64,000 bases of DNA from Sabellastarte sp. h YS-2021 (taxonomy: Eukaryota; Annelida; Polychaeta; Sabellida; Sabellidae). Of this stretch, positions 22,720-55,773 are shown piece by piece. The position numbers were made by a program, and so were the translations under genes. The DNA is taken from assembly GCA_964017235.1 (NCBI GenBank), contig OZ024934.1:77466706-77530705 (forward strand), in the 5' to 3' direction. The notes under the pieces were generated by a model, which was given only the letters and a program-made list of their open reading frames with translations, did not search any database and had not been told where the DNA came from. The number at the start of each line of letters is the position of its first letter. Positions within the stretch are counted from its first letter, which is position 1.

Positions 22720-24151
22720 AGTTAGGAGATACAGCTGAGGATATAGAGAGAAGAAGGAGGGGGGAGAGGAGAGAGAGGAGAGAGAGAGGGGAACAGGATG
22801 AGAGGGACAGAGAGAGGATACAGAGAGAGGATGGAAGAGAGCCAGGAAAGGACAGAAAAGCGAACATGAACAGACACAGATACTGATGTAGAATCAACTC
22901 AACCCAGACAGAAGAAGGGGTCCATAAAGTCCATTTTCCTGAGTGATTCAGATGAAGAAGCCATCATGGAGTTCATTAAACAGCACAAGGAACTTTGACA
23001 AGACAAACAACAAGTTCAAAGACAATCAGAGGAAGGAAGGACTTTGGGAGGGACTAGCAGCTTCCAGAAACTTATCTGTCAACACTGTCAAGAAGTGGTT
23101 AGAGACTCAACATACCAGATATTGCAAGCTCACTCAGACAAAGTCAGTAGAAGCTGCTGAGAAGAGCACCGAAAGACAGACCTGGTTGAAGGACAGTTTC
23201 AGTTTTCTAGGAGGTCACATCAGAAGGAAGGGAGTGTCTAAGTTTTCTGCATTCAAGTCACCAGTGTGCCCTTCAGCAGCAGCAGCCACAGCTTCAGTTC
23301 CGGATACTTCACAAGAGACTAAATCTGAGACGGAAATCAGCATGTCATCTGATGTTCTCATCAGCTGTTGAGCACAAGCTCTTCACGACAACCACCAGCT
23401 GTTGCCACCACCCCTGCTGCAGATCTAGTTTTAGATCAGTTCCAGCAGATGAGGCCAATGATTTCCAGTTTTTTGGGTGCACGTCAGGACCCTACTCCAA
23501 GTCCAAGACAGTCATTCTGCAACTATCTCTACTCTGAGATTGAACACCTGGAGGAGTGAGACTTTTTGACTTTCAGGAATGAGACAGTGAAACTTCTCAG
23601 TGAAAGTACAACGCCAAAGAACGCAAGTGACAGGTCACAACTAGTCCACATGTCACCACATTTCAACTTCCAGAAGCAACACAGGCCACAGGAGGACATG
23701 AATACATACTCCCCATACCAGATACTCAACCAGTCTCCCTACCAGTTGTGCAGCCTTCTCAGATAGCCAAAACACAGCCTGCTACAGTGATTGCCAAAGT
23801 ACAGCAACCATCAAGGTCTTCATCAGCGTCAGCACAGCCAGCGTCTTTCCTAGTTGTGGATGACCAGCAGCCTGGGATTTCAGACAACTGATGTTTACTT
23901 TGAGCCCATCAAAGACAGTTAACCTGCCTTCAGTTGCATCTGGACAACAAGTGAAAAGTCAACACAACACTTCTGGATTGTCAAGCAGCTTTGGTGGGAT
24001 TCCAAGTGTACTACAGTACCAGCAGATCAACACACCACAACCATTTTCACCCTCTCAACTTCAATCAGCACAATCACCAGTGCCATCTTCCACTCATCAA
24101 GAACAGTCAAAACCTCCCAGCAAGTCCAGCCAGCAGAGTCAGCCCAAATAA
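22720..24151 (+). pseudogene. Element A MADF/Myb-like DNA-binding protein, frameshifted
   Basis: An acidic AG-rich leader (about 22,720-22,870) precedes a MADF/SANT-like helical domain. EEAIMEFIKQHKEL matches the element B protein, then a 2-nt loss near 22,995 shifts the frame to NNKFKDNQRKEGLW and VKKWLETQHTRYCKLTQ. The rest is a Gln/Ser/Pro-rich tail in several frames, ending at TAA 24149-24151. In PIF/Harbinger elements the second protein carries a Myb/SANT or MADF domain and helps the transposase to bind DNA and enter the nucleus. The start is not preserved clearly. The gene is followed after 31 nt by the stem-loop at 24,183. Confidence 0.75.
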
Positions 24152-24182: not shown

Positions 24183-24198
24183 GGCCCTTATAAGGGCC
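24183..24198 (+). promoter_or_regulatory. Histone-like 3' stem-loop after element A MADF gene
   Basis: GGCCCTTATAAGGGCC has a perfect six-base stem with a TATA loop, 31 nt after the TAA stop, followed by ACACCA and by TCCAAAAACAATTTATT. The stem equals the histone consensus GGYYCU...AGRRCC. The loop deviates at its second base from UYUH. It is also a perfect palindrome, so a DNA-level role is possible. Confidence 0.6.
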
Positions 24199-24379
24199 AC
24201 ACCAATCGTCCAAAAACAATTTATTAAGCTACTTGTTGTTGCACAAAAACATAAAAGGCACACCATCCAACACTTACACTTCCCTCAAATACACAAAAAA
24301 ATTTGTGTGAATGAGTGAATGAATGTTATATACCAAAAAATAAAATTTCAGCACACACACAAAACCCAAAAAAACAAAC

Positions 24380-24570
24380 CCCCTCCAAAAAAATAATAAA
24401 GTGTCACTTCGCCCCACCCCCCAAAATTAAACTAAGACCTGAAGTGACACCCTCCCCCCCAAAAAATATATATAATAATTAAAGTGTCACTTTCCTCCCA
24501 CCACCCCCGCCAAACAAAAAATATAACACATGAAGTAACACCCCACCCCCACGCCCCAAAAATATTTTAA
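24380..24570 (+). repeat. Degenerate tandem repeat in element A
   Basis: Three or four units alternate AAGTGTCAC/GAAGTGACACC with C-runs (CGCCCCACCCCCCAAAA, CACCCTCCCCCCCAAAAA). They sit between the 3' ends of the two convergent genes. Confidence 0.65.
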
Positions 24571-25079
24571 AATAGTACACACATACAGACAGACAAACAA
24601 GTAAGAAACACACAGCATCTAAAAATACTGTGCTATGAATGTGTGGATGGACTCCAAAACAACACCTCGCATGTCACAAACATCCCATGACCTGGCTGTT
24701 AATTGGGTACTGACAGACTGATTTAAATATTACATTATTGGTAAAACTGGATTAAGTTAAAATTTGATTTTTATTTTTCAAAGGTTTGGGTTTTGCAAAA
24801 TTGCATGGAAATGATTAAAAACAGTTATTTTTTTCCAGGGATGAAATTATTATTATTTTTGGGAATAATGTTATTTTATGGGGGTTTGACTTTTGAACTT
24901 TGAGGACCTCGGTTTCAATCTGTGTGAGACCGGGTTAACTTTTGCAATAACATTGTCCACAATATTTTTAGTGGGGGGGTATTTTTTATTTATAATTTAA
25001 TTTGGATTCAGTGTGATTGAAAATTAGGTTTAATGTTTGTGTAACACTTTTTCAATAAAAGTTCATGGATTATTTTGGT

Positions 25080-25095
25080 AGTCCTTAAAAGGACT
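25080..25095 (-). promoter_or_regulatory. Histone-like 3' stem-loop after element A transposase
   Basis: On the minus strand it reads AGTCCTTTTAAGGACT: a perfect six-base stem, loop TTTA (fits UYUH), then ACCAAAATAATCC. It starts 33 nt after the ancestral transposase stop (25129-25131). The outermost pair is A-T where the histone consensus has G-C, with both sides changed. Confidence 0.65.
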
Positions 25096-25128
25096 GATTG
25101 ATGACAGCTTGTTCTCCCCTCAATCTTC

Positions 25129-26414
25129 TTAAATTCTGTCCTCCTCCCCAGCCAGTGCCCCAAGGTTGTTGAAGTAGTCTTTCTGTAGGTCTTGTTGATG
25201 TTTGGCCTCCCTCGATGGATTTCTGATGTTTTCATCCTGTGCTTTCTCCCCTGTGGTCATTTTGTGGTAGTTGTATGTCATCTGCTGGAGTGGGTGGTCT
25301 GTCTGCTCCCCCCTGATGGCTTCTCAGCATGTTATGTAGTACCACACATGTTAACACAATGTCTCTGACAACTTTTGGCCTCTGCTCCGTGGTGGTCAGC
25401 AGCACCCTGAATCTTCTTACTAGTATACCAAAAGAGTTCACGACCACCCTCCTGCCCCTGGATATCCTGTAGTTAGCTATTCTCTCCTTTCTAGTCAGTT
25501 GTCTGCTATATGGCTTGAGCAACCAAGGCATAAGGGCAAAAGCATCGTCCCCTAGTAGGAAGTAGTGTAGATATGCCCCTCAGGTCCAAGTGGTTCAGGT
25601 GGTGGTAGTTACAAGGTTCTGTTCTCAATTCTTCTTTTCAGTTTGCTGCGGTTGAATATCTCAGCATCAGATGATGACCTCTGGCCCCCATGTTCCCCCA
25701 CAGGAACTTGCACTCTGCATCTACTAAAGCCAGAAGTACCACGGAGAAGTAGCCCTTGTAGTTGAAATATTTACTGTCTGACTTCTTGGGCTTCTTCAAG
25801 GCAATGTGTTTGCCATCTAGTGTACCGACTACATGGGGACATTCCATCTGTTTCTAAATCTCTCTTCAATTTTCTTCCAGTCCTCTGAATCAGTTGGACA
25901 AATCAAATATTTGTGTTGAAATTCCTTTAAGATGGCTTTACAGACCTGGGGGACAAATTTCTTCCAAAATCTTCCAATGCTCCATTGGTATTGCAGTGAA
26001 GTGTATGTTTCCCCTGTGGATAAGTGTCTCAAAGTAACTGCCAGTTTCAATCCGATTTCCAGTGTCTTCTTTAAGTTGGTGGTTGACTTCCTCAGACGAC
26101 GGGTAATTCTTTTTTCAATTAAATAAAAAACTGCTGGTTCCATCCAGGTGAAGTTTTCTGTAGCCTGGTATGTCAGTTGTGATTAGCTCATCCAAGAGTG
26201 TTCCGTAGCAACCTCTCTCCTCTCCCTGCAGTATCCAGGGCATAACCCATGGCTTCTGTGGCTTCCTCCTCCTTCTGCATGGTGGGGGCTGTGGCTGTGG
26301 TGGTGATGCTGGCTGGGCAGGTGCTGGGTTCTGTTGTCTTCTGTGTCTTGAAATCATGATATATAATAGCATATTCAATTGAATAAAAAAACCAAAGGAG
26401 CCTGAACTTGTCAA
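25129..26414 (-). pseudogene. Element A PIF/Harbinger transposase (HARBI1-type DDE), broken
   Basis: Fragments in order, on three frames: PQPQPPPCRRRRKPQKPWVM (26.3 kb), LRHLSTGETYTSLQYQW (26.0 kb), [17 protein letters not shown] with the first Asp (25.8 kb), then [17 protein letters not shown] (25.5 kb). The position of the catalytic Glu reads V (VVVNSFGIL against VVENAFGIL in element B), and frameshifts separate the blocks. The C-terminal REAKHQQDLQKDYFNN ends at TAA 25129-25131, homologous to the end of the element B protein. The enzyme would have cut and joined transposon ends. This copy cannot. Confidence 0.88.
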
Positions 26415-27492
26415 ACAGTTCCTCTTAATGTGTTGCTGTCATCTTTGAGGTGTGAAATGAGTGTCACATCCCTAGTGGCTGGGGTTTAGATAGTGTGATA
26501 TGGATCCGGATTCTGGATCCTGACTATAGATACCGACCCACAAAATCAATTAGTCCTGTCAGCAAGGGTCGGGAACATGCTCCCAGCTTGTCTGTTTGTC
26601 TTTACGGCTTGTCTGTTTGTGATCCGGCTTGTCTGTAAGGAGTTTAGGACTTGTCAAGGTACTTTTACGACTGGCAAAGCAATAAACATCCCTGACCCTA
26701 CGTCTTATCGGGGCAGTCACCACATCCTGTCTGTAAGTACACCGTCCTGTTGGAGATTTCTTAACCGACTCCCACAATCTCACGACTTTCACAACCGACC
26801 CTAGAGTTGTAGGGTCGTAGAGTCGGATACAGTGTCAACTCCATTGGAACACCAGCATAAACTTTAAATCTGATGTTTGGCTCAGCTTGATCTTTCTTTG
26901 TAAATACAGTCTACAAGTAAAAATAATATATTTGTCTTGCTGTTCTATTTACCCATATACATTTCATTTGCCAGGCTTACCCACTTCTCTGTCTTCTTTG
27001 CTCTCAGTTTTACACATGGAAAAGTAAAGACAATTCAACTTTGGCCTGTTTTGTGCCCTTACATATAATATACATTACAAGAAATAAAACAAAGTACATG
27101 GTAATATGTTTTCCTTTACATTTGGCCTGAATTAGTTAATAAAAGGTTTTACTAATCGCCAGTTTTTGTTAAATGTTTCTTGTTTGATTTCCAGTCTTGC
27201 CACAAACTTTTGTTCCTCATAAATATTTTTTTTAATTCTAGTATATCTAATGTGGTTGCTCCACCACACGACTAAGCTTCCCGATTAAGGGTTTTTGGGT
27301 CGGCTTTAAATATTTGCTTCGTCCCAGATGTCCTGTAAGGGTCGGTAGTTGTCGGTTGTGGCCGTGAGAGAAATCAAACATGTTTGATATTTTTCATGAC
27401 CCAAACCGATTCTCATTTCCCGCCGACAACAAAATGTCCAGTCCCAGGCTTCCTCAGGCCTCCTCAGACCCAAATTTACACAGGTCTGGGAC

Positions 27493-27500
27493 TATATAAG
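27493..27500 (+). promoter_or_regulatory. TATA box of element B MADF gene
   Basis: TATATAAG in a locally GC-rich setting (GGGACTATATAAGCGACCGC) lies 181 nt before the ATG at 27681. The context is typical of a TATA-driven RNA polymerase II core promoter. Confidence 0.5.
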
Positions 27501-27680
27501 CGACCGCGCACACATTCTCGTTGTTACTGACTGTTTGGCTACTGAGAGACGTGTGTCACTGTTTTGTAGGGGTTTTTAGTTTTTTTTAAATATCATATAA
27601 TACTTGAGCTTAAGGTAAATTTTACAGTTAGGAGACACATTTTACTTTTTTACTTTTTTTTATTGCTATTGACTGGAGTT

Positions 27681-28838
27681 ATGAGGAAAGAGAAAGGAGG
27701 GAAGAGAGGAAAGAAGAAGATGGATGAGAGGCAAGAGGAGAGGGAGAAGGAAAGTGGAGAGGTGGAGGAAAGGATGGAGGAAAGGACGGAGGAGGGTACA
27801 GAGGAGGGTACACAAGAGACTGAGGAGCGATTGGAACTTACTGAGGAAGCTTGCGAAGAAGAAGAGAAGTGGATTTAGAGAGTCACTCGGCAGCCAAGAG
27901 AGCCAGGGTCTGTTCAACTTTCACTGACAGCCAAGAAACTGCAATAGTGGAGTTTGTGAAGGAGCATCCAGAGCTCTACGACAAGGAGCATGCACGTTTC
28001 CATGACAGACAGAAGAAGGAGGCTCTCTGGGCAGAAATTTTTGAAGCTCCAGCCCTTTGATGTCAGAAGATGGTTTGAATCCCAGCGAACGCGTTATGGC
28101 AAGCTGTCAAAACTACAATCTGGCCAAGCCCCAAGGGAGATGACCAAGAGACAGTCCTGGGTCTACCAGCAGATGGGTTTCCTTAAGACCCATATCAGAT
28201 GAAAGGGGGCCAGCAGAAGTTTAGGGTTCGAGGCCAGTCCAAATACCAGCAAGCAGGACGAATCTCGTGGATCTACTACTGATACAGAATACCTTGAGTC
28301 CAGTGTCCTCAGGGAGAGTAGGAGTCAACCTATGTTCACATCTACACCAGTTTCAACAGACTCCAAGATGCTTGAGCACTTTGACCAGATGAGGACATTG
28401 ATCTCATTGGCATCAGAGGCTAAAAAGATAACCCAAGAGGAATTTGAGGACCTTAAGGGCAGAATTTTTAGAGATATTGAAACCATTAAGACCAACTGTA
28501 GACGTCAACCACTAGCCAGAAGATCAGCCACTATTACCACGGAGTCCCAGAGGGTCGGGATACTGCCAACAACCACTCAACAGGCGTCTACTTCCACCCA
28601 AGCAGCAGCTAGCAGCAGTTACGTCTACTACACACCAAGCCCCCTTGGCTTTGGCAACCCTCCATCAGTTCTAACTGTACAGGATGAGGGAAATAGACAC
28701 AACTTAAGTGGAATACTAAGCCAGCTACCAGATCTGACATCTACACAGATCATTGAGCAGCCTCAGCAGCAGCAGCAGCTGCAACTCTTCACTATCACCA
28801 CTACAGCACTGCCTCAACAGCAGCAGCCTCCTCAGTAG
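27681..28838 (+). pseudogene. Element B MADF/Myb-like DNA-binding protein, degraded
   Basis: ATG 27681 opens a Lys/Glu-rich leader. A frameshift near 27,860 leads to SHSAAKRARVCSTF and the domain DSQETAIVEFVKEHPELYDK. A second shift near 28,058 leads to FDVRRWFESQRTRYGKLSK. TGA at 28200-28202 replaces an Arg codon still present in element A (HIRRKG). The C-terminal half (28,203-28,838) stays open: EQFEDLKGR-like helices, then a Gln-rich tail (QQQQQLQLF) ending at TAG. The domain is the short three-helix type that accompanies Harbinger transposases and is thought to bind the ends. As read, the protein is not made whole unless by other copies or unseen introns. Confidence 0.75.
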
Positions 28839-28870
28839 CCATCCAGTCAGGGTGGGTCTTTGACCTGCCA

Positions 28871-28886
28871 GCCCCTTTTCAGGGCC
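28871..28886 (+). promoter_or_regulatory. Histone-like 3' stem-loop after element B MADF gene
   Basis: GCCCCTTTTCAGGGCC differs by one base (position 2) from GGCCCTTTTCAGGGCC, a common histone stem-loop. It is followed by ACCCA and then AAATATTCCAAAAACAATTA. It starts 32 nt after the TAG. The single change breaks one stem pair, in line with the decay of this gene. Confidence 0.65.
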
Positions 28887-29154
28887 ACCCAAATATTCCA
28901 AAAACAATTATTTAGCTGCAAGTTATTCCAATTCCCTTCCCACAACATAACAGTTCAGTACAAATACTTATCACAAAAAAATTTAACACATAACCAAAAA
29001 AGGCCACATAGAAAAAATATTAAAATAAACTCCCAATATGGCCAATAATCAGCCCATTTTAGCTTAAAATCCATGGGATTGTTTAAAATCTTTAATAAAA
29101 AGTCCAACACTTACATCATTCCTAGAGTTAAAAGGCATTATCACATACTTACCA

Positions 29155-29320
29155 ACCCACAAACACACAAACCCAATACCAAACCTAACCCCCAACTAAA
29201 CAACACACAAACCAAATACCAAACCTAACCACCAACCCACAAACACACAAACCAAATATGAAACATAACCACCAACCAAGAAACAGACAAACCCAATAGC
29301 AAACAGAACCCAAACCAAAT
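29155..29320 (+). repeat. Short tandem repeat in element B
   Basis: Units of about 33-40 bp, built on ACCAACCCACAAACACACAA then ACC(C)AATACCAAACCTAACC, lie in the spacer between the gene ends. Confidence 0.7.
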
Positions 29321-29479
29321 AACTGACAAACTATTTTGCAAACATAACCCCCATCATTGTAAAGAAAACCAGTTTGGTGGTAATATTTCCTAAATATTTG
29401 TGAAGTGGAGTAAAAGATTTTAATTTTAAGATTTCCAGGAAACATTTCTGTTTCAAATATTTTTCCCTCAAAAAAACCC

Positions 29480-29690
29480 TGGATGAATTATGTTGGCCAT
29501 GGGGTTTGTCTGTTTGTTGGTTGCGTGACTTCTGTCGGGCATTGGGTTTGTCTGTTTGTTGGGTGAATTATGTTGGCCATGGGGTTTGTCTGTTTTTTGG
29601 TTGCATGACTTCTGTTGGGCATTGGGTTTGCTGTTTGTTGAGCGGGTGAATTATGTTAGGCATGGGGTTTGTCTGTTTGTTGGTTGGGTG
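29480..29690 (+). repeat. Tandem repeat of about 60-70 bp units in element B
   Basis: GGGTGAATTATGTTGGCCAT, GGGGTTTGTCTGTTTGTTGG and TTGCGTGACTTCTGTCGGGC recur about three times with few changes. Confidence 0.75.
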
Positions 29691-29760
29691 ACTTATGTTT
29701 GGTAATGTTTGGGTTATTTTGAACAAGCACAGCTGATTAATTGTTTTTGGAATATTTGGT

Positions 29761-29822
29761 AGTCCTGAAAAGGACTGGTTATTAGTCCTGAAAAGGACTG
29801 GTTATTAGTCCTGAAAAGGACT
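29761..29822 (-). promoter_or_regulatory. Triplicated histone-like stem-loop after element B transposase
   Basis: Three identical hairpins, AGTCCTTTTCAGGACT on the minus strand, lie at 29807-29822, 29784-29799 and 29761-29776 with a 23-bp period. Each has a perfect six-base stem and a TTTC loop, the commonest histone loop. The first starts 17 nt after the transposase stop. Only the last is followed by ACCAAATATTCCAAAAACAA, the same flank as behind the MADF-gene hairpin, so it is the likely original. Confidence 0.7.
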
Positions 29823-29839: not shown

Positions 29840-31150
29840 TTATATTCTGCCATCTTGCCAGGCCACTGCTCCCTCATTATTGAAGTAATCCTTGAGGTAA
29901 TCCCTCTGTCTTTTGGCTTCTCTAGCAGGGTTTCTGTCTGGACCACCACCAGCAGCACCACCAATCAGTTGACAATCACCAGGCACATCATCATCTTCAT
30001 CATCTCCAGGCTCTTGACCACCATGTTGACCTTGATACTGGCTTCTCAGTATGTTGTGCAGAACCACACAGGTCATGACCACATCCCTGACTGTTTCTGG
30101 GGGTAATTCAATAGTAGTCAACATCACTCTGAATCTTGAGACCAGGATGCCAAAAGCATTCTCAACAACTCTCCTGACCCTTGATATTCTGTAGTTGGCA
30201 ATCCTTTCCTCTCTGGTTAACATCCTTCTACCATAGGGTTTCATCAGCCAGGTCTTCAGGGCAAAAGCATCATCTGCCAGAATGAAGTAGGAGACATCTC
30301 TACCACCCTGTGTTATAGGAGCTGGGTCAGGGAAGCCTATCCTACCATCCTCAATCCTCCTCTTCAGCTGACAGGCATTAAATATCTGGGCATCTGAGCA
30401 AGATCCAGCTGTACCAGCATCCACCCATCTGAATTTGTACTGCCCATCTACCAAGGCCAACATTGCTATGGAAAAGAACCCCTTGTAGTTGTGGTACAGG
30501 GCTCCAGAGTTCTTGGGCTTCTTGAGGGCCACATGCTTTCCATCAAGGGCTCCCAGGGCATGTGGAACATTCCACCTGATCCTGAATTCCCTTTCCAGTT
30601 CTTTCCACTCATCTGGAGTAGTAGGACATCTGAGGTACTCTCTGGTGAACTCATCCTGGATGGCCCTGCAGACCTCTGGTAGAAACTTGGAAATGGTGGA
30701 TCTGCCAACCATGAACTGACAGGATAATGATGTGTATGACTCTCCAGTGGCCAGATATCTGATGGTGAGGGCTAACTTCTCCCCAACACTGATTGGAGCT
30801 CTGTAGTTGGTGGCCTGCCTGGCTAGACGTGGTTTCAGTCTGGTCTTTATCATTTCAAAGAATTCTGGGGTCATCCTCATGTAGTTGGTGAATCCTGGAT
30901 TGTCTGTGGCATACAGTTCAGCCATAATGTTGTGGTAGGCCCCCCTCTCCTCTCTCTGCAGTAGCCATGGCCTGACCCACATGTTGTGCCTTCTTCTAGG
31001 TCTCTGTATGGCTGGTGGTGGTGGTGATGCTGCTTGTGGTGGTTGCTGTGGTCTACATAGAAATAGCAAATACATCATTATTTGTAACTGAATAAAAACT
31101 AAAAAAACCCGAAGTTGTTGCTGAAGTTGTCTTCCATTAAAATGTGGCAT
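29840..31150 (-). CDS. Element B PIF/Harbinger transposase (HARBI1-like), intact
   Basis: A 436-aa frame from ATG 31150. The N-terminus is hydrophobic, then Pro-rich. A helix-turn-helix-like segment RYLATGESYTSLSCQFMVGR lies at 131-150. The DDE_4 catalytic core follows: Asp203 in GALDGKHVALKKP, Asp253 in AGTAGSCSDAQIF and Glu330 in RRVVENAFGILVSRFRV, with CVVLHNILRSQ after it. All three acidic residues are present, so the enzyme may be active for excision and integration at TWA sites. The C-terminal tail is acidic, then basic (EAKRQRDYLKDYFNN). The partner protein is broken in this copy, so mobilisation would need it from elsewhere. No intron is needed. Confidence 0.95.
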   Translation of the reverse strand: MPHFNGRQLQQQLRVFLVFIQLQIMMYLLFLCRPQQPPQAASPPPPAIQRPRRRHNMWVRPWLLQREERGAYHNIMAELYATDNPGFTNYMRMTPEFFEMIKTRLKPRLARQATNYRAPISVGEKLALTIRYLATGESYTSLSCQFMVGRSTISKFLPEVCRAIQDEFTREYLRCPTTPDEWKELEREFRIRWNVPHALGALDGKHVALKKPKNSGALYHNYKGFFSIAMLALVDGQYKFRWVDAGTAGSCSDAQIFNACQLKRRIEDGRIGFPDPAPITQGGRDVSYFILADDAFALKTWLMKPYGRRMLTREERIANYRISRVRRVVENAFGILVSRFRVMLTTIELPPETVRDVVMTCVVLHNILRSQYQGQHGGQEPGDDEDDDVPGDCQLIGGAAGGGPDRNPAREAKRQRDYLKDYFNNEGAVAWQDGRI

Positions 31151-36800: not shown

Positions 36801-39800
36801 TACAAGTACCAAATTATGGATAAGTTAATTAGGTAAGCATCCGTAATAATTACAATTATAAGTCAAAATATATTAATAAATGCATGCTAGTTGATAAAAG
36901 ATACTAAGTCTTTAAATTGCAAAAAAGTGGCCATTAAACCATGAGTTTTTACTTGTTTGATAGGCCATTATACTGTTATTTCCACAGGAATATGCAACAT
37001 TTTACTCTGTCGAATGTGCACTGTAAGTAGTGGTGGAACGATTCGACGATACCTCGATTCCTGGACTCGATTCCGCGTTTTAGCATCCACATCGATCTGC
37101 ATTGGGAACGTCGGCGACGAAAGAAAAAACGAAACCATCGAAGACGTTTTGAATGGACGATAATAGAAATACTTACTGCAATGTGCGATGACGTGCGATC
37201 GTTTTCATGAAGTTTCTGAACTTTTATTGTTTTACTACTTCACTGTGTCTGATTTTTACTTTGTATGGAGCCAATGGATACAAGTGGACATACTTACTAC
37301 AATATGCAATCGTTTTTATAAACTTTTACTGTTTAACTGCTTTACTGTGCTTGACAATAACTCTGTATGGAGTTAAGTGGAAATACATATTACAATGTGT
37401 GATTGTTTTTATGAATTTTCTGAAGTCTGACACTAATTCTGTATGGAATATGGAGGCACTGAAGGGAAGTGAGGGCCAGCTCTATCCTTACCCAGGGAAG
37501 GTGAAGAGCTATGTATGGGCCCATTTTGGTTTCCAAAAATCTATGAAGGATGGGAAGCTTGATCTTACAAAAGCTGTATGCAGGGAATGTAAAAAAGAAT
37601 ACAGTAATAATGGTAAGGGCCAAGGATTTCTTCCAGTCATAAATCATGAAGTTTGAATAGGCATTTCCAAGAAAAATATATTGAAGTATTGTATTCTATC
37701 TGTTTTTTTTTTTTTTGTTTTTTTTTTTGTGTGTGTGTGGACTGCTTCTTCAGCCCTCTTATCAATACTGCCAAAATCTATGTATTAGCTTATTTAGTAC
37801 GAAGTGACTCCTGTAATGGCATCATGGTTTTAAGTTTTCGTCAGAAGTCATGGCATCGCACAACAAAAAAATCAGTTAATTTATTAGTGGTATATTTGTT
37901 TGACAATTGCATAGAATGTTGATGAGGTCACAGAATTCTGTGGGGTTTCCCAACAATGTGTAAAATTATTTTAATTGAAGGTCAAAATCCACAGAGAACT
38001 CATTAATATTCATGAGGTCACAGATTTCCATGGGCAGTTTCCTGGCAACATTTTCTGCTTCAAGATCAAACACTGGATGGTCTATACACAGCTCATGAAT
38101 ACTTATATATGCGCAGGAAATATATCACGATTTTGGGGGATTTTTAACAATATTTTAGTCGAAGACCAAAATTTGTGGACTACTCAATTAATATTCATGA
38201 GGTCACAGTATTATTTTATTTGTGTGAATCAATGGTATTATGATTGGGATCTGCAAATGCCATGATTTTAGATGAAAACGTAAAACCACGATGCAGTGAC
38301 AGGAGTCCCTGTGTATTTAGTATTTCCCATGGACAATAATACTTCATGTGCAATAACAGATTGCAAGGCAGTAGTGTGACACAAGGTCTAAGAGTCTGCA
38401 TATAAATAATTGTTATTTGCGTGACATTAAATGTTGTCCTGTAATCTAGTAGTTAGCAAGTTTGGCATCTAATCCTACAGCTGTTACCTCTGCCTGGGTT
38501 CGACGCTAGCAAGTGGCAAGGCTGAGGGCTGTCCCAATATAACCCTGGCTGTTGAATGGGATGCAAAGCCCCACTTAACTTTGTAATTACTCTGTAATTT
38601 AATATTGTTTGATTTTCAGTTTTTACAAAAACACTTTTTATATTTTCAGGCAACACAACAAATTTCTCAAATCATCTAAAAAGAAGCCACACCCAATTAT
38701 ATGCTCAAAAAGAAGGTCAACATTCTGCTCCACAGGAAACTATTACAAGTCACTTTGCCTCTAGTAGCAAAGCCAGTGAGTTACCTTTGCCATCTTCACG
38801 CACTGACTGTATTAATCAATCTCTTATTAATTATGTAATTGTATCAATGGAGCCAATCAGTACTGTGGAAAATCCTGCTTTTCGTCAATTTGTCAAGACC
38901 TTAGAGCCCAGATATCAGCTAATGTGTAGGAAATCCTTAAAGGATAAATTACAAAATAAGTATACAGCAATGAAAGAAAGTCTAAAAAAGGATATGTGTG
39001 CTGTGGACTTTGTAGGTTTGACCCATGATGGATGGACAAGTCTTAATACAGAAAGCTATGACACTGTTACATGTTCTTACATTGACAAGGACTGGAACAT
39101 GCAGTGTAAAGTTTTAGATACTCTAAAAGTTTGTGGGAGTCATACTGCGGAAAATATAGCCAACTGCTTGACGCAAGTGAAGACTAACTGGGGTTTTTTG
39201 TCTCAAACTCTGGTTACAGACAATGCTGCAAATGAAGTCAAAGCTGCCTCACTTATCAACTGGCCAAGACTTAGCTGTATGGGTCATAACATAAATCTCA
39301 TCGTTACTGCAGGTTTAAAAGAAGTACAACGGTTAATAGCAAAAGGTAGAACTCTAGTTGCTTTTTTCCATCGAAGTCCTCTGGCAACAGGTGCCTTATT
39401 GGAGAAACAGAAGTTGTTGCTGTCAGAGGCAGCTCAGGGTCACAAATTGATAATAGACTGTCCAACACGTTGGAACTCTTGCTTGGACATGCTTGAAAGA
39501 CTGTGTGAACAGTTACCTGCCATAACTGCTGTGGCTACTGACAAAGACCTTGACTTCAAATGTAACATTAAGTCTAAAATTTATACTTTTGAAGAGCAAA
39601 CTGTCATTGAATTACTTATAGAAGTGCTACAGCCATTCAAGAGAGCCACTGTTCTTCTATCTGGTGAGAAGACACCTACTTTATCCTTGGTTTTGCCAAC
39701 AATTATTAAATTGGAATGTGCATTGTTAGAGAAACCTGATGATCCAGCTTCAATAAAGAAAGTAAAGGAAGCCATGTCTCAAAATTTCCAGAAGAGAAAA

Positions 39801-42800
39801 CCTACTGTTGAAACCCACTTGACATCATATCAATTGGCATCTTTGCTAGACCCGAGAACAAAGACATTGGCATTTATGCGCCTACAAGAGAGGGGAGACA
39901 TCCACCAGCAACTAAAAACTGAATGCATTGAAAGGTTGAAATTAAAAGTGAAATTTCAAGTTAAAAAGGAGCCTGTTGAGCCTACAGAAGACAGTGGCAC
40001 ATTAATATTACCTGAGTCTAACCCAGACAAATCTGAGGGTGAAGCTTTAGAATTTCTACTTCCTCAGTTACCCAACTTACCTTCATTACCATCAGTGGCT
40101 GATCCATTTGAGTCAGATGGATTTGATTCCAATATGAATGTGGTCCCTGTGAGAAAGAAACTTAAGACTGAAATTGGTGAGGTGAACAAAAGTTTACATG
40201 AAAGCAAACCATCTACTCACTGGTTAGATGATGTTGTCTGCACAGGAAGTGACCAGCCCCAATTCTCCGATGAAGAAGTTGTTTGTAGAGAAATTGATTC
40301 TTACCTTATGGAGAGTCAAATTCCATCAGATCAGTGTCCATTAAAATGGTGGCAGAGTAAAGTACAATATCCTCATGTTACTGTTCTAGCCAAAAAATAC
40401 CTGTGTATTCCTGCCTCTTCTGTTTCATCAGAGAGAATTTTTAGTTTGGCAGGTTCAATTGTTAACAAAAAGAGAACACAACTAACTCCTGAAACTGTCA
40501 ATATGCTTATATTTCTCAACAAGAACTGTAAATAATAAGGGGTCCTGTAGTACTGACTAATTAAAAAAAAACATACAGTAACCTGAAATGGGCAAAAAAT
40601 GCCAAAGTGTAATTTGTCAAAGTTAGTGAATGAGTCTAAAGTAATTGGACATCTTTATTTTTCAATTTTTATTTTATTTTTCATTTCAATCATTTTGTAT
40701 TTTCTGTTAAGAATTCACTGTGAAATTACTGAAAAGAATAAATAAAACGTTCAAGTACATTGAAATGAGAAATGCAGCATTTTACTTAAATTATGTAATT
40801 TAAATCTTCACATGTTAACCTTTTAACAGCAAAAAAATTATAAAATTTTCATGTTTACTACTGTTACAGATAAAACTTACTGATTTATTATAAACCACTA
40901 CATTGCTGAATCCTAATATGACTCTGACTGCTATTTAGGATGACCTGGATGAGATAGAGAACCCAAATTAATATTTTTTATAGAAGGAACTTTGTAAAAT
41001 CCTGTATGACCCAAAAATCGATTCGACTCGATTAATCGTCTCTAGACTTTTCCGATTAATCGATTCTGATTTTCAAGTCCGATTCCCACCACTAACTGTA
41101 AGTCAAGTGCAGTGGGAGTTACTAAACCACTAAATTTAATGGTGATGTTCACTCAGCTTCCCGAGATACTCAAATCATATTTGTTCTCTTAAGACCTTTC
41201 CACCATAGTTTGTTATTCATCTGGTGTCTCTGTGGACACAAACATTGTTGTGCTCATGGACTGATGAATTTTGCAGTATTTATTTATTTGGGGTTTTATG
41301 TCGCTTTCAACACTGTACAGGTCATATCACGATGGGTAGTTGGAAGGGCAGAGGAAACCAGTACATAGAGTTCATCAGGGTTCTGTACCATAAACTGCCG
41401 ACCAACGGCAAGCAACTACCAGCTTTCCCACTTGAGACCATGCAGGGAACCGAACCCTGGCCTCAGAGGTGGGAGGCAAGAGTGTTACCACTCTGCCACC
41501 GTGGCCCCGAATTTTGCAGTAATACCTATCATTGTTTTGCCTTAGAGTCTGCTTAAGTGCAGAGATTAAGTACTATGAAAGTCTAGAATAGAATAGAATG
41601 GATACATTTATGAAGGAATACTTACCCGACCATCTTTGTTTCTGTCCAGGTACTGAAAGGCATCTTCTATTTCAAAATCTTCACCAAAGAGGAGACTTCC
41701 ATCTTTTGTTTCTTTCAACTGGAAATAAAGATATAAAATGTAACTATTTACTAAGTGAAACTATTGCTAAAGCCCGATATGTTTTAAGAATGATGAAATG
41801 TGATATAGTTATGTCTGCATTTTGTTCTCAAAGAAGCAGTGCCTGAGAATGTACAAGTGCTTGCCTTGCAGGTAGTCTTAAAATAATCTGGATTTTGAAT
41901 ACACAATACACATCTTGATCCGGATTTTTAAGGACTTTGAGGAGGACCAACCATGGCTAGTTCCCATCTTGTGTGACAATATAATCCAATTCGATGAGTA
42001 GTTTTTGAGTCGAGTTATGCATGCATCAGTGGGCATCAGTAAGGAACTACCAACTTTCCCACACGGATTCATGTCCATGGTTCAAACCGCTTACCTTATA
42101 GGTAGGAGGAGAGTGAGTAACCCACTACACCAGTAGAAGTTTGAGAATTTTTACAAAATAAAAATTGTTTGCTTATACTGCATAGTTATCAATGTGAGTA
42201 GACAAGCTAAATCATATAAGTTCAACTTTATCTTGGGATTGGATCATTGCTGGCGCAATGTATTCTGTTGCATTAAGGGTTGTCCTTCTTTACAATGTTG
42301 TTATGCAGTGCGGTCCTGAACATCCTACCTTTTCAAATGCTTTTTGGAATGTGGTGATGGTTATTCCATTCTCCTTGTCAGCATCTAGTTCTTTCAGTGT
42401 CTTCAGAAACACCAGGCCTGCATCTACTAGCTGTCTTTTCCTTTCATTCTCCTTCAAGACTTGGTCACAAAATCCATGTTTCAGTCTGGAAGAGAAAAAT
42501 AGGACAAATTTATAACACATTTGCCCATACAGATGATGCTAATGTAAAAGGTTTAATTGAAAACACTTACCCAAAGAATTGCATAAACCACAAAGCCTAG
42601 TTTTGAAACAACGAAGTATTTAAAAAGATATGAGTCAAGAATGCATTAGAAGTACTTAATTTTAACATATTTTTATGGGACATGCAAGTAATCATCCCTT
42701 GCTTCATCATTGGTACATGCTACCACACAGTACCACCATGTAAATATAATCTTGTGACAGGACTGTCCTTTATAGCTCCAGTAAAGTTTTGATTCAGATT

Positions 42801-48800: not shown

Positions 48801-49687
48801 TGTAAACTGTTGACCAACGGCAAGCAACTACCAGCTTTCCCACTTGAGGCCATGCCGGGAATCGAACCCTGGCCTCAGAGGTGGGAGGCGAGTGTTACCA
48901 CTCTACCACCGTGGCCCCCTGTGTAACCTTGAATACATACCAGAAAAAAAGTATTTATCACTGTTTCTTCTCTCTTTTCTTTTTTCTTTTTCATTTGATA
49001 TTGAAGAAAAAAACTTTTACAGAAATCTCAAGATAAATTTTTAAGCTTTTATATTTGCTAATACCCTTTACCAATGTTCAGTCTCAGCTAGCTTTTGCAA
49101 ATAGGTACAGTAAGACTACATAGGTTTTGCTCAGTATTTTACTTATAACAGAAGCAAAGTGGTGGATAATAAAATAAAATAAACCTTTGTGGTACACATT
49201 TTAAAATTTCATCACTGTAGAAGACAAACACAATCCTTGTCGACCTCGAATTTTAAATAGATTTGTTTCCGGTCATGATAGAATTCAAATTTGTGTACTG
49301 CTCAAGTAACTTTCATTTTTTAATTAAACTGACAAATGATATCTGGATACAGATCATTTAAGTGTATTGCCTGTAATAGGAAAATGAATAATCACCTTTA
49401 CAAACATTTTACTTCAAAAACCAGGATTAAACTGTTTAATGTCCAAATAGGAGTCCAAATATATGCGAATTAACATGCCTAAACAGTTTAATGTCCAATT
49501 ATATGCAAATTAATTTATTTTAACACCTATAAAAGAGTACCATTACAACTCTTACCTTTATTCCACCAAGATATGAGGTTGTTTTTACACCACCACCGCT
49601 GAACACTATATTTTCAAAGTCAAACTCATATTGTTGAAGTTCAGTCAATAGATCTTTTAAGTCTTCTTCATAACATACCACAGACAT
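33860..49687 (-). CDS. Gene 2: patatin-like phospholipase with C-terminal EF-hand, 12 exons
   Basis: Coding exons, in transcript order: 49556-49687, 48208-48355, 46993-47129, 46279-46414, 45400-45495, 44199-44302, 43201-43292, 42329-42485, 41626-41718, 36439-36597, 34514-34609, 33860-34093. GT-AG borders give 1,584 nt, 527 aa, with no internal stop. Phases equal those of gene 1. Exons 5 and 9 are each one codon shorter than in gene 1, and the last exon is 43 codons longer, ending VEDCDDC. Patatin motifs: SGGGVK at 30-35, elbow ATSGG at 60-64 (Ser62) where the family has GxSxG, and VDGG with Asp203. EF-hand loop at 359-370 (DRNKDGRISFDE), plus a degenerate preceding one (LDADKENGITI, about 317-327). 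The expected role is calcium-responsive lipid acyl hydrolysis in the cytosol or at membranes, inferred only. No upstream acceptor precedes the ATG, so exon 1 looks like the true first coding exon. Confidence 0.9.
34365..34455 (+). repeat. SINE-2 fragment
   Basis: CAGTAGCAAGTCTGAGGAAC, then ATATGGCCCTGTCTGTTG and GACATAAAGCCACAACTTT, match the 3' half of SINE-2. Confidence 0.65.
34830..36161 (+). mobile_element. LINE fragment, L2/CR1-like, 5'-truncated reverse transcriptase
   Basis: The frame begins inside the RT: LLDLSGAFDTIDHFLL (about 34.92 kb), then GVPQGSVLGPLLF. A frameshift puts the catalytic YADD (35188-35199) in another frame, and TAG at about 35,284 replaces a Trp codon. The C-terminal part is open again (35,287-36,027), with NPEKTEFIIIG, LDYCNSLLYG, LKKLHWLPIQHRI and PAEWNKLPQTVR. 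The 3' end GCGCTATATAAAACC with an (ATT)n tail is typical of L2/CR1-type elements. Endonuclease and 5' parts are missing. It lies in intron 10 of gene 2, antisense to the gene. Confidence 0.9.
37160..37445 (+). repeat. Tandem repeat in the hAT 5' region
   Basis: Nearly three units of about 100 bp share TGCGATCGTTTT/TGCAATCGTTTT/TGTGATTGTTTT, then TTTATTGTTTTACT-like and CTGTATGGAGT-like blocks. They precede the transposase start and may hold promoter or transposase-binding sequences. Confidence 0.65.
37450..40535 (+). CDS. hAT transposase with BED zinc finger
   Basis: Two exons, 37450-37612 and 38650-40535, with GT-AG borders (TGGTAAGG; TATTTTCAG). The joined frame is 2,049 nt, 682 aa. A BED finger is assembled across the intron: aromatic YVWAHFGF, Cys44, Cys47, His63, His68. 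The RNase H-like core has Asp181 (GLTHDGWTS), Asp245 (LVTDNAANE) and Glu649 (SSERIF). CPTRWNSCLDML is the conserved hAT RW segment, and the C-terminus is the hAT dimerisation region (YLCIPASSVSSERIFSLAG). The length and all key residues suggest a potentially active enzyme that excises and inserts with 8-bp duplications. The intron contains a SINE-2 copy. The start was chosen as the ATG just before the finger; the frame is open further upstream. Confidence 0.93.
38438..38590 (+). repeat. SINE-2 copy inside the hAT intron
   Basis: AGTAGTTAGCAAGTTTGGCA, GGGTTCGACGCTAGCAAGTG and AACCCTGGCTGTTGAATGGG. It is more diverged than the 16.7-kb copy. Confidence 0.8.
41279..41508 (-). repeat. SINE-1 copy, full length, perfect TSD
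   Basis: Flanked by GAATTTTGCAGTA at 41266-41278 and 41509-41521. It lies in intron 9 of gene 2, between the hAT and exon 9. Confidence 0.95.
42015..42110 (-). repeat. Decayed SINE-1-like head
   Basis: GGAACTACCAACTTTCCCAC, then GGTTCAAACCGCTTACC and GTAACCCACTACACCAG, keep the layout of the SINE-1 head and proximal body. Confidence 0.5.
44405..44640 (+). repeat. SINE-1 copy, full length, perfect TSD
   Basis: Starts GGGGCCACGGTGGCGGAGTG, has GGGGTTCGATCCCC and ends with AAATAAATAAATAAATG. The duplication AAAGCATTTTA lies at 44394-44404 and 44641-44651. It is one of the youngest-looking copies. Confidence 0.95.
47680..48150 (-). repeat. LINE C-terminal remnant (L2/CR1-like)
   Basis: The minus strand reads ANGLVSSRLDYYNSFW and LQKFQYIHNSFARIIL, matching VSSRLDYCNSLLYG and LQRVQNALCRII in the LINE at 35.6 kb. 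Then it decays. It lies in an intron of gene 2 between exons 2 and 3. Confidence 0.75.
48691..48918 (-). repeat. SINE-1 copy, full length, perfect TSD
   Basis: Flanked by CTGTGTAACCTTGA at 48677-48690 and 48919-48932. It lies in intron 1 of gene 2. Confidence 0.95.
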
Positions 49688-52325: not shown

Positions 52326-53315
52326 TTATATAATCCGAGCGAAAGTCTGAGCAATTTCTTTACCCGAGGACTTATTTTTCTGGATGTAAGTCCAGACACA
52401 GTCTGAAGACCAGGAGCCGTGTTGCTTGATGGATTGTAGTGAAGCATTTGAATTATAAGCCAGAGTTGCTCCTGACCGACGAAAGGTGTGGAATGTGTAT
52501 TCATTGGGGGGAAAACCTAATTTAACATTTAATTTTGCAAGTACTTTTCTAATCCTAGAGTCAATCAGTACTGACCATTTTCCAGCAGAAAAAATCTGAA
52601 ACAATGGGTCATGTGGGGCAGGATTGTACAAAGTCATAGCTTGCTTGAGAGCTCTAACAGGGCAAAGAATACTAGATTTAAGTCGAGGAAGAGTTATAGT
52701 TTCCACCCTATTTCTAAACTGATTTGTTTCTGACCACTTTATTGACACATACATGACGTGCTTAGAAATTTTAACGTCAGAAGGAGTGAGGTGTCTGGAA
52801 GGATCAAAGACTCCATAAGAGTGAGGTGCCATGTTTGAAATTCTCAAAAAACCAAAGTAAGCAATAAGAAACACGGCTGCAAAGATTTTACCATCAGGAA
52901 TGAAAGAGCATGCAGCAATGAAGGAATGGAGGGTTTGAATTGACATGATAGGTCTATGGGTGACAGATAAGGGTCTAGACATTTTCATAGACTTTAGAAA
53001 ATAACGTATTCTAGGGTGATCCATCAACTCATATTCTAGGCCATATACGACCAGGTTGGCTTTGATAGTGGATACATGATTTGCAATCATATGCACAGAT
53101 ACTTTATTCCATGCTAGGAATTCGAGGAAAGCCATTATGACTGCTAATGATATGCATTGAATTCTAATTTTTGAACACACACAAAACCCTATAAAGTTTC
53201 TAAACAGGAGCTGATAGCACCTCTTCGTCTTAGGCCTAAATGCATCTTTCACTCTTGAGTTTGCTGCACACACGAACCCAGCGATGCGCTTCTGACCTGC
53301 AAACAAAGAGTACAT
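52326..53315 (-). CDS. Ngaro tyrosine recombinase
   Basis: 329 aa. It integrates the circular DNA intermediate by site-specific recombination in place of a DDE integrase. The catalytic set is visible: Arg in YFGFLRISNM, the HxxR box HTFRRSGATL, then HGSW and the Tyr nucleophile in VWTYIQ near the C-terminus. The N-terminal half resembles a SAM-like core-binding domain (FLEFLAWNKVSVHMIANHVS). The frame is open to its stop just inside the border with B1. It starts 23 nt downstream of the RNase H stop, in a different frame. Confidence 0.93.
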   Translation of the reverse strand: MYSLFAGQKRIAGFVCAANSRVKDAFRPKTKRCYQLLFRNFIGFCVCSKIRIQCISLAVIMAFLEFLAWNKVSVHMIANHVSTIKANLVVYGLEYELMDHPRIRYFLKSMKMSRPLSVTHRPIMSIQTLHSFIAACSFIPDGKIFAAVFLIAYFGFLRISNMAPHSYGVFDPSRHLTPSDVKISKHVMYVSIKWSETNQFRNRVETITLPRLKSSILCPVRALKQAMTLYNPAPHDPLFQIFSAGKWSVLIDSRIRKVLAKLNVKLGFPPNEYTFHTFRRSGATLAYNSNASLQSIKQHGSWSSDCVWTYIQKNKSSGKEIAQTFARII

Positions 53316-53338
53316 CTGTTACTACCAGCTTATACAAG

Positions 53339-53761
53339 TTAAATATCATTATTAATATCTAACAGGGCTGAACTAGTGTGAATCCACACTGGGTTTGGAA
53401 TAATCTCTATGAGAGCTCGCATTTGACTTGGTGCATTTCTCCACCTGGACAACAAGTCCGCTGCAGTGTTTTGCTTCCCAGGAACATGCCTATATAATAA
53501 TTGAATATTGTACAGAGCTGCTGCCAGCCACACATTTCTAGCACAAGCGGCCATGAAGGCATCCTTAGTTCTACCAGTATTCAGTACCTGTACTACAGCT
53601 TGATTGTCGCATTTTATCAGTACTTTTTTGTTTTGCCATGTGGGGCCAAAAATTTTGATAGCCACAAGTATGTTTATCATCTCTAGTTGGGTGATATGCA
53701 GGTTTTTATAGTGTTTTTCAATGGGGAGATGGTAGACCTTATTATCACATCTACCACCCAA
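53339..53761 (-). CDS. Ngaro RNase H domain
   Basis: About 140 codons continuing the RT in another frame. DIRS-type RNase H residues are visible: HITQLEMINILVAIKIF (Glu), VLIKCDNQAVVQVLNTG (Asp) and PGKQNTAADLLSRW (final Asp). The frame overlaps the RT frame by 79 nt (53683-53761) and has no obvious ATG. It is therefore either fused to RT by a -1 shift or separated by a mutation near 53,770. It removes the RNA strand during reverse transcription. Confidence 0.85.
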   Translation of the reverse strand: MGGRCDNKVYHLPIEKHYKNLHITQLEMINILVAIKIFGPTWQNKKVLIKCDNQAVVQVLNTGRTKDAFMAACARNVWLAAALYNIQLLYRHVPGKQNTAADLLSRWRNAPSQMRALIEIIPNPVWIHTSSALLDINNDI

Positions 53762-55773
53762 ACCAAGACTTCTTGAATTGGCTTGTGGTCATAAAAGGCT
53801 GTCCCATTGAAATGACGCAAGAAAACCTGAAACCATCTTATATCTCTTCTGAAGTCATGATTGAGAGTGACACTTCTGGCGTCATAATTTGACCTCAATA
53901 ATTCTAGTATTCTGTTGACAAAGAAGCGTGATGGTCTGACGCATTTTTGAATATACATGAGATGGCCTAGCAATGACTGTAACTGGCGTATAGAACAGAA
54001 ACGCTTAGTACTCCATTCATCTACCATTTCACATATGCGTTGCAATTTTTCATCAGGGATGGCAATAGTGCGTCGCACCATGTCAATCTCGACGCCTAGA
54101 CATATAGCCTTAGTACTGGGTGGACATAGCTTCTTTTGGCTAACGTCAAGGCCAAGACGACGCAATAAGTCAAGCAAACAGTGATATGATGCAGATGCGA
54201 CGCTAGGCGTCCCAATCCCGACAAAATCGTCGACGTAGTTTATGACGCTGTACCCCCTCTGACGCATGCCAAAATGTATGGCGTCACTTATGCGTTGGAA
54301 GATTTGCGTCCTGTGACGCGCCCCGAATGGGAGGCAAGTGTCCACGTACGTGACGTCATTCCAGGACAGACCCAACAAGTCATAATCTGACGGGTCAAGC
54401 TTGACGTGATGAAACGCCCGACTTATGTCAATCTTATAGAGGTGGGCACCAGTGCCCAGCCGAGTCAGCTCAGATGTAATGTGATCGACAGAAGGAAAAG
54501 TAAGGGCAAAATCTGTGCCCAGATACGAATTTTTATCTATGCCTGCATTCACAGACAATCCTTGAGGCCATGACAGATCTACTATAACATGCCTTTTGTC
54601 AGATCCAGATTTTTCACGAGTAAGGAAAGGTGAATAGTGACATTTTTCAATGGGATTTTTTGTGAAAGGGCCCAGAATCGCCCCATGGGCAATTTCATCT
54701 TTCAAATAAGCATCTACATGATCAGGGAACTGCACAGCAGAAGCATGATTGTTTCTATCTGAAGATAGTGAAAAATTTCTGTTGTAGTCTAGAGGGAAGC
54801 CAAAGGCTAAGAGTTGTATTAATTGAGTGTCCCAGTAACCCTCCAACATTTCTTGCCAGGCTTGCAAATTGAACTGCGAAGCCACAGGAATTCTACAACC
54901 TAAAAAATTCATTTGACCACTATCTTTTATGTGTTTATGTAGGGCGAATGGTTCAATCACACAATGAGCCGGAATATCACTGATAGGTAACATAATAAAG
55001 TCAGACAGGGGAACAAAGCCAAAATCAAAGTCAGATTGGGCCCGCCATTGATTGAATATCTGTACATTGGTTTCCCCTTTGACACACAATAGTTCTTCTA
55101 ACTTCTTTTTACCTGTTACATTCAAAAATTTGTCATCACAACCATTGATGTCAAACAGTAACACCTTGTCCTGTTTTGACATGTCAGTTTGTTCACCATT
55201 GTTAGTGACACCAATGTTCAATTCATTTTCACCGACCTCAGCCTTTGTGTTGGGATTGGGAGTAATTACACCACCACATTCTTGATGGTTTTGTACCGGT
55301 GCAACAGAGTTTTCAGACCTCCTGACCTTTCCGTCCCTTTTTTGTACATATTTCTGGAGAACGGGAGAAACAACAATATCAGCATGACTTCTGACTTTAT
55401 GTGCGGTTTTACTGTTGATATTTTTAACACACTTCAGATCAGTGGTACTAGTTTCAAACCTATTACCATGAACTTTCTTACCGTGCTGTAAGGACCTCCT
55501 CTTATTGCCTCTGGCCAGTAAGCTTTCAACATTCCTCTTACTCACCTGTGAGTTATAAAACAGTCTCATTCGTACCTCTTTGCACTGGATAGTTTGATCT
55601 TTTGTATGCTCTCGAGTACATGCTTCCCTCACCTTAGGGTAAGTCACCTCCCTACCAGCACTTACCATTGGCATGTTTTTTGACACATTTAAAGTCTTGC
55701 TGCCCAGCCCTAATTTTGCTGAGCAGCCAATTGGTCGTTTTTTGCTACATTTGATTTCTTGGCAAACAGACAA
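53683..55773 (-). CDS. Ngaro reverse transcriptase
   Basis: About 696 open codons. The N-terminal 250 residues have no recognised domain. The RT follows: HVIVDLSWPQGLSVN, LYKIDISRAFHHVKL, DTCLPFGARHRTQIF and the catalytic YVDDFVGIG, then KAICLGVEIDMVRRTI and the thumb/connection region. The first codons lack an ATG and overlap the end of gag by 64 nt in the -1 frame, so expression as a Gag-Pol fusion by frameshifting is plausible. Alternatively it starts at an internal Met about 35 codons in. It copies the element RNA into DNA. Confidence 0.93.
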   Translation of the reverse strand: MSVCQEIKCSKKRPIGCSAKLGLGSKTLNVSKNMPMVSAGREVTYPKVREACTREHTKDQTIQCKEVRMRLFYNSQVSKRNVESLLARGNKRRSLQHGKKVHGNRFETSTTDLKCVKNINSKTAHKVRSHADIVVSPVLQKYVQKRDGKVRRSENSVAPVQNHQECGGVITPNPNTKAEVGENELNIGVTNNGEQTDMSKQDKVLLFDINGCDDKFLNVTGKKKLEELLCVKGETNVQIFNQWRAQSDFDFGFVPLSDFIMLPISDIPAHCVIEPFALHKHIKDSGQMNFLGCRIPVASQFNLQAWQEMLEGYWDTQLIQLLAFGFPLDYNRNFSLSSDRNNHASAVQFPDHVDAYLKDEIAHGAILGPFTKNPIEKCHYSPFLTREKSGSDKRHVIVDLSWPQGLSVNAGIDKNSYLGTDFALTFPSVDHITSELTRLGTGAHLYKIDISRAFHHVKLDPSDYDLLGLSWNDVTYVDTCLPFGARHRTQIFQRISDAIHFGMRQRGYSVINYVDDFVGIGTPSVASASYHCLLDLLRRLGLDVSQKKLCPPSTKAICLGVEIDMVRRTIAIPDEKLQRICEMVDEWSTKRFCSIRQLQSLLGHLMYIQKCVRPSRFFVNRILELLRSNYDARSVTLNHDFRRDIRWFQVFLRHFNGTAFYDHKPIQEVLVWVVDVIIRSTISPLKNTIKTCISPN

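Follow-up and report, generated by a model that had tools for sequence, protein, structure and literature searches.

Replication-dependent histone mRNAs are matured by a pathway in which SLBP and the U7 small nuclear ribonucleoprotein (snRNP) cut the transcript after ACC(C)A, leaving tail-less mRNAs whose level follows DNA synthesis. To our knowledge, 3' ends of this type are viewed as all but exclusive to replication-dependent histone genes. Factors of 3'-end processing have been joined with transposons in a Drosophila study of Symplekin, CPSF73 and retrotransposon small interfering RNAs (PMC5392987, in the portion accessible to us). In the open-access literature, as far as its accessible portions go, we found no report joining histone-type 3' ends with transposon genes, and no paper on U7 in molluscs; the parts described below are of known kinds, and what appears to be new is that a transposon lineage combines them. 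Here we describe a 64,000-nt stretch from the annelid Sabellastarte sp. (contig OZ024934.1, positions 77,466,706 to 77,530,705; hereafter the window), in which two DNA transposons of apparent PIF/Harbinger type, elements A and B, carry histone-like stem-loops behind both of their genes, a MADF-type gene and a DDE transposase gene. Judged from these signals and their relatives across the host assembly (1.786 Gb in 647 contigs, to which all genome-wide counts refer), one PIF/Harbinger-type lineage probably uses SLBP/U7-type histone mRNA 3'-end formation for both genes.

The two elements occupy 22.5–31.4 kb of the window, each with the MADF-type gene on the plus strand and the transposase gene on the minus strand, in convergent orientation. 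A first-pass annotation of the letters had claimed a hairpin behind all four genes, on the gene's own strand and 17–33 nt past the stop codon, and the letters and coordinates of six hairpins bore this out. The MADF gene of element A is followed after 31 nt by GGCCCTTATAAGGGCC (24183..24198, plus strand) and that of element B after 32 nt by GCCCCTTTTCAGGGCC (28871..28886, plus strand). On the minus strand, the transposase gene of element A is followed after 33 nt by AGTCCTTTTAAGGACT (25080..25095), and that of element B by three copies of AGTCCTTTTCAGGACT with a 23-nt period, at 29807..29822 (17 nt past the stop), 29784..29799 and 29761..29776. An Rfam scan with 4227 families returned exactly four matches to RF00032 (Histone3) at E ≤ 1 in the 64 kb, namely the hairpins of the element A MADF gene (35.1 bits), the element A transposase gene (30.4), the element B MADF gene (24.3) and the third hairpin of the element B transposase gene (31.0). 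Since these sole matches fall one to each gene, a chance origin is excluded; the family's gathering score of 34 was exceeded by one of them, that of the element A MADF gene.

Upon a closer inspection of the hairpins, the six-base stem and four-base loop that had been described held for all but the element B MADF hairpin, whose stem falls short of six pairs because of a C.C mismatch at the second. At this mismatched position a G stands in the MADF hairpins of other copies, as collected in a list that required six pairs. The loops UUUA, UUUC and UUUC fit UYUH and UAUA departs from it, as had been noted for three of the four, and ACC directly follows the stem at three of the four sites, with ACACCA at the fourth, again in line with the earlier description. 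A strict test (UYUH loop, six pairs) recovered the four transposase-side hairpins and one unrelated place in the window, at 18825; both MADF hairpins fail it, one through its UAUA loop and the other through its mismatch.

Behind the stem-loop or stem-loops of each gene lies a block resembling the downstream element of histone genes. Two models were used: R1 was built from five host histone 3' ends only (H1, H2A, H2B, H3 and H4), and R2 comprised the downstream block alone, with the hairpin left out. R1 scored the four element sites at 52.1 (element B MADF), 51.4 (element B transposase, third hairpin), 41.6 (element A MADF) and 40.2 bits (element A transposase), the next match in the window reaching 17.0 bits (E 0.37). 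R2 likewise ranked the four sites first, the next match having E 1.6. These are the cleavage-site region and block of the element A MADF gene (CCAAAAACAATTTATTAAGCT, 24199..24236, plus strand; E 0.0065), the block of the element A transposase gene (CATGAACTTTTATT, 25043..25079, minus strand; E 0.027), that of the element B MADF gene (ACCCAAATATTCCAAAAACAATTATTTAGCTG, 28887..28923, plus strand; E 6.2e-7) and that of the element B transposase gene (ACCAAATATTCCAAAAACAATTAATCAGCTG, 29725..29760, minus strand; E 9.7e-6), the last preceded by the third hairpin of its row. In type, the downstream block comes near that of H1, H3 and H4; the block of the element A transposase gene, which also reads CCATGAACTTTTATT, is nearest the H2A/H2B type. 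In element B the transposase block is 93% complementary to the MADF block and is thus the same block on the opposite strand. Some genes have two or three hairpins in a row, as does the element B transposase gene and as do the MADF loci L004, L134 and L141; in these three loci R1 matches the last hairpin of the row, where the block follows, which is as expected if the last hairpin directs cleavage.

The host's own histone genes supply the standard of comparison. H3, H2A, H2B and H4 are clustered at C2:27.74 Mb and H1 forms a tandem array at C4:31.45–31.51 Mb; H3 and H2A were confirmed by Pfam, H2B, H4 and H1 were named from their protein letters, and the hairpin assigned to H4 lies 41 nt past the H4 stop by coordinates. 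All five genes end in GGCTCTTTTCAGAGCC, then ACCYAWAWMTTYCAARAACWWTTAWT, with AGCT within a few bases, so that the layout reads GGCTCTTTTCAGAGCC-ACC..CAARAAC... The exact histone stem GGCTCTTTTCAGAGCC occurs 39 times genome-wide: six times at C2:27.65–27.74 Mb, 32 times in the H1 array and once at C8. Within the array (C4:31445400–31509300) the 32 stem-loops are spaced at 1932 bp with one longer gap, and at locus L062 a Lys/Ala/Pro-rich, H1-type C-terminus ends 34 nt 5' of the hairpin. A further host H2A gene at C6:30.6 Mb (L045:1267–1324, minus strand) has a C-terminus that reads SQEF, of H2A.X type, which makes it a putative H2A.X gene. Its hairpin, 31 nt past the stop, has the element-type stem GGTCCTTTTCAGGACC with the block ACCCATATATTCCCAAAACAATTTATCAGCT (R1 48.3 bits) and differs in its stem from the five model genes; a host histone gene therefore carries a stem of the element kind. 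The SLBP domain (PF15247) was found in the host in two pieces (56.8 and 35.9 bits) at C6:90.39–90.40 Mb, the shorter of which has an internal stop, as an exon edge might. With the host histone downstream block following each element hairpin at equal spacing, the likeness to histone signals proposed in the first-pass annotation holds, and the identification of the element signals as histone-type 3'-end signals is strongly supported.

The signal recurs throughout the assembly. The strict hairpin pattern GGYYCTTYTHAGRRCC has 2144 + 2237 (4381) places, against 78 + 88 (166) for the reversed pattern, and a composite of the hairpin's 3' half, ACC and the block has 4375, against none for its reversed control. 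We examined the first 28 of the 4381 pattern places in file order, all on C1, a non-random sample selected for the hairpin. MADF homology lies upstream on the same strand at 27 of the 28 (weakest at L004, 29.3 bits, and L134, 27.7 bits; missing at L136) and in none of 27 control stretches of about 3 kb each. R1 matched at 25 of the 28, the hairpin part being there by selection, and R2 found a block at 23, next to either the sampled hairpin or the final one of its array (weakest E 0.037). The core CA[AT][AG]AAC lies 11 or 12 nt past the stem (12 nt for the element A MADF gene) and, where found, at no other distance. It is present at all four window sites, in 16 of the 28 sampled places, in 11 of 19 further Rfam-ranked element sites chosen from 75 and at all five histone sites, and in 0.2% of shuffled sequence. 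On the transposase side, the 30 best of 96 scored matches, which are close relatives, carry the signal in 29 cases (at L010 about 0.9 kb beyond the protein match; at L037 the hairpin core is lost), or in 28 when the hairpin must lie within 120 nt of the stop. Recurrence of the motif after stops in other copies, on which the earlier proposal depended, is thus found behind both genes. Among the first 100 composite places, 29 neighbouring pairs lie less than 2 kb apart; all 29 are convergent, at 715–1193 bp.

By contrast, the signal is missing from the divergent transposases of the same genome. These controls were 40 of 150 PF13359 matches, hand-picked from the higher-scoring part; most equal-score rows were skipped and some of the 40 are near-copies, so they do not amount to 40 independent families. 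In these, no R1 match exceeded 13.7 bits, and R2 matched five times, at E 0.028 for the top two. None of the 40 has, within 600 nt past the domain, a sense-strand hairpin that combines six pairs with a CTT...AG core; in three, a hairpin of this form lies within the domain but on the other strand, and the loops are unrelated. Identity in the transposase domain is at most 30% for the sampled relatives that lack the signal, compared with 41% over 306 aa between the transposases of A and B, and from these identities the carriers appear to form one lineage. No relatives were confirmed in viral contigs.

Conservation between elements is concentrated at the signal. In a comparison of the stretches, about 1 kb each, that separate the convergent genes of A and of B, only the two hairpin blocks were alike at E < 1e-6; two likenesses at E 0.002 come next, and both are additional copies of the transposase hairpin. 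Likewise, a single 50-nt match, the hairpin and block, joins L002 and L003. The element stems read GGCCC/GGGCC, GGTCC/GGACC or AGTCC/GGACT, and those of most host histone genes that were inspected GGCTC/GAGCC. In a set of 28 hairpins that includes histone ones, 98.8% of cells are paired; changes on both sides occur in three of the six stem pairs (13 cells against 2.7 in shuffled alignments), and the covariation score of 0.266 (0.139 in shuffles) is reached in none of 500 shuffles. As the sequences are related, this covariation is support rather than proof.

The genes themselves range from intact to degraded. The MADF-type gene of element A (22952..24151, plus strand; stop 24149–24151, 5' limit approximate) is degraded: its longest ATG open frame has 139 aa (22952–23371), its PF10545 match of 21.1 bits falls just below the cut-off of 22, and it shares 72% identity with its relative L002 over 121 aa. 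That of element B (27681..28838, plus strand) has a broken frame, open over 28332–28838 with the stop at 28836–28838; over the best piece, 15 of the 28 sampled loci match it at 73–84% amino acid identity. The intact relatives L003 and L005 have a single frame of 405 aa (PF10545 44.5 bits). The element A transposase (25129..26400, minus strand; stop 25129–25131, 5' limit approximate) is of DDE type and frameshifted, and that of element B (29840..31150, minus strand; stop 29840–29842) is a single open frame of 436 aa (PF13359, DDE_Tnp_4, E 1.2e-32), to which the 96 scored genome matches, its own copy counted, are 91–100% identical. Intact copies of the two genes consist of one open frame each (MADF, 405 aa; transposase, 436 aa) and are apparently intronless. 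An element end was found in 28 of the 30 transposase loci, TAA or TTA (TWA) preceding 23 of the 28; only one end was seen per large element, and the window's own copies gave none. Inside one transposase copy, a small element of about 916 bp (L013:354–1269), apparently a non-autonomous relative, has both inverted ends between TAA repeats. The TWA before the ends, the inverted ends of this small element, the DDE_Tnp_4 domain and the MADF second gene together fit PIF/Harbinger. Between the convergent genes of element B lie tandem repeats of about 40 bp (29151–29350 and 29480–29713), which are partly complementary (86% arms).

In the mechanism that we propose as most likely, host SLBP would bind the element stem-loop, U7 snRNP would pair with the downstream block, and the histone cleavage complex would cut between the two. 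The MADF and transposase mRNAs would end in the stem-loop without poly(A), and would be stabilised mainly alongside histone mRNAs, that is, in S phase. What was observed is the cis signal, its identity to host histone signals, its strand, spacing and conservation, its absence from the 40 divergent relatives, and an SLBP-domain sequence in the host. By analogy with histone mRNAs, we give the coupling of transposition to S phase roughly an even chance. The same balance applies to the fuller account, in which the lineage captured or evolved the whole signal for both genes, its mRNAs are tail-less and replication-coupled, transposition is confined to S phase, and the lineage, with its thousands of copies, has become a main client of the host's machinery for histone mRNA; this may prove right or wrong with equal ease.

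Several results weigh against the use of the histone pathway. No U7 snRNA with complementarity to the block was found: the best match to Rfam RF00066 reached 31.0 bits against a threshold of 34, none of the ten sub-threshold matches read was U7-like, and the best four or five are a repeat. Three patterns of U7 complementarity gave 95, 100 and 204 places against 28, 331 and 17 in reversed controls, many of them repeats, and none of 19 hand-chosen candidates read for an Sm site and a firm 3' hairpin was convincing; because the downstream block served as their template, the patterns would not detect a U7 of different make-up. The nearest AATAAA or ATTAAA lies 62–398 nt from the hairpin start at the four window sites and 115–665 nt from it in L001–L008, so that polyadenylated read-through forms, and mixed 3' ends, are possible. 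In the window, both MADF genes and the element A transposase gene are broken. Of the 28 sampled loci, 12 lack the strict core, five (L008, L123, L135, L137 and L139) gave no block-alone match, and one, L141, has a block match (E 0.037) that falls behind the top two among the controls (E 0.028). Two measures of stem covariation do not exceed shuffles: the number of pair types, reached in 483 of 500, and, to a lesser degree, the three co-varying pairs, reached in 46 of 500. Finally, the element promoters, judged by eye, bear no likeness to histone promoters. An E2F-like site (TTTCCCGC) lies at about 27416 on the plus strand, about 75 bp 5' of the TATA box that precedes the element B MADF gene; it is absent from element A, the histone stretches tested and the first 420 bases of L001–L008, of which L001, L003 and L005 begin 57–70 bases 5' of the TATA box and the other five may miss the promoter. 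No such site occurs in 200 further upstream bases of L001, L003 and L005. An S-phase promoter was accordingly dropped, the site being confined to element B.

We also considered whether the elements are depleted of poly(A) signals, and dropped this idea: in 18 of the 40 hairpinless controls an AATAAA lies no more than 250 nt from the stop, so this test fails to separate the two groups.

Among alternative explanations, the one that fares best accepts the histone-type 3' ends and assigns them a different benefit, in place of S-phase timing: an end without poly(A) that lets intronless mRNAs be exported and translated, a clean stop between convergent genes, or expression in the oocyte or early embryo, where factors of histone processing abound. 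The genes are single open frames in convergent orientation with 3' ends 0.7–1.2 kb apart, and the signals fit processing as such and are silent on timing; yet the signal stands on both genes, as expected if joint timing matters. We regard a benefit of this kind as a real possibility, short of an even chance.

It is improbable that the signal stems from a single capture of a histone 3' end and has since hitch-hiked unused. The block's closeness to the H1, H3 and H4 type makes capture plausible as an origin. Disuse, by contrast, sits badly with the finding that, between families with transposases 41% identical, no intergenic DNA other than the hairpin blocks is well conserved, with stems that have changed in a compensated way, and with element stems unlike the common histone stem, 38 of whose 39 exact copies lie at C2:27.65–27.74 Mb or in the H1 array. 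More doubtful still is that the many copies are decoys for SLBP or U7 rather than productive mRNA ends. The 4375 element-type composites do far outnumber the 39 exact histone stems in the assembly, but decoys would not have to be linked to stop codons, to be kept on both genes or to have the block placed after the last hairpin of a row. Least credible is the explanation that the first-pass annotation had set against its own claim, namely palindromes acting at the DNA level, for instance as binding sites for the transposase or the MADF protein in mid-element: the stems are near-palindromic and are repeated in rows behind some genes, and the MADF protein has a DNA-binding domain, but a mere palindrome is rejected because the strand is fixed, the UYUH loop asymmetric and the block one-sided and equal to that of histone genes, and moreover both genes have the hairpin behind their stop codon, MADF-like sequence precedes 27 of the first 28 places in the sense orientation, and the element ends are located elsewhere.

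Elsewhere in the window, a hAT-family transposase frame of 562 aa (PF05699) lies at 38847–40535 on the plus strand, with a BED zinc finger frame nearby (37207–37656). Reverse transcriptase frames at 52326–56948 on the minus strand, with sub-cut-off RNase H-like and tyrosine-recombinase matches, have the layout of a DIRS-like retrotransposon; the frame at 55710–56948 (minus strand) had no Pfam match. Two sub-threshold mascRNA matches on the minus strand (48848–48916 and 41436–41506), with a tRNA-like arm of the GGTTCGATTCCC type, are probably tRNA-derived repeats.

If transposon genes do use the histone pathway, this would be a natural takeover of histone 3'-end formation by a transposon lineage with the full signal on both genes, and would offer a directly testable link of transposition to replication; the element mRNAs would be expected to be under-represented in poly(A)-selected RNA data. 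The thousands of natural variants could show which stems, loops and blocks the machinery accepts, and Rfam matches to the histone stem-loop in such genomes may mostly mark transposons.

Compared with described systems, the Drosophila study of Symplekin and CPSF73 concerns, in its accessible portion, small RNAs from retrotransposons and not histone-type 3' ends of transposon genes (PMC5392987). PIF/Harbinger elements with a Myb/SANT (MADF) second gene share with A and B the DDE_Tnp_4 transposase, the MADF protein and the TWA at the ends; among the 40 divergent matches hand-picked for that Pfam family in this genome, none has the histone-type 3' end of A and B. The putative H2A.X gene has in common with the elements the stem type and an identical downstream block, but is itself a histone gene. 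The 3' ends of replication-dependent histone mRNAs (RF00032) likewise combine a UYUH-type stem-loop, ACC(C)A, a block at the host spacing, a gap of 17–33 nt and single frames. There, however, the signal serves histone genes, and here the genes of a transposase and a MADF DNA-binding protein; the elements have GGCCC/GGGCC, GGTCC/GGACC or AGTCC/GGACT stems in place of the host's common GGCTC/GAGCC, and their genes sometimes carry two to three hairpins in a row.

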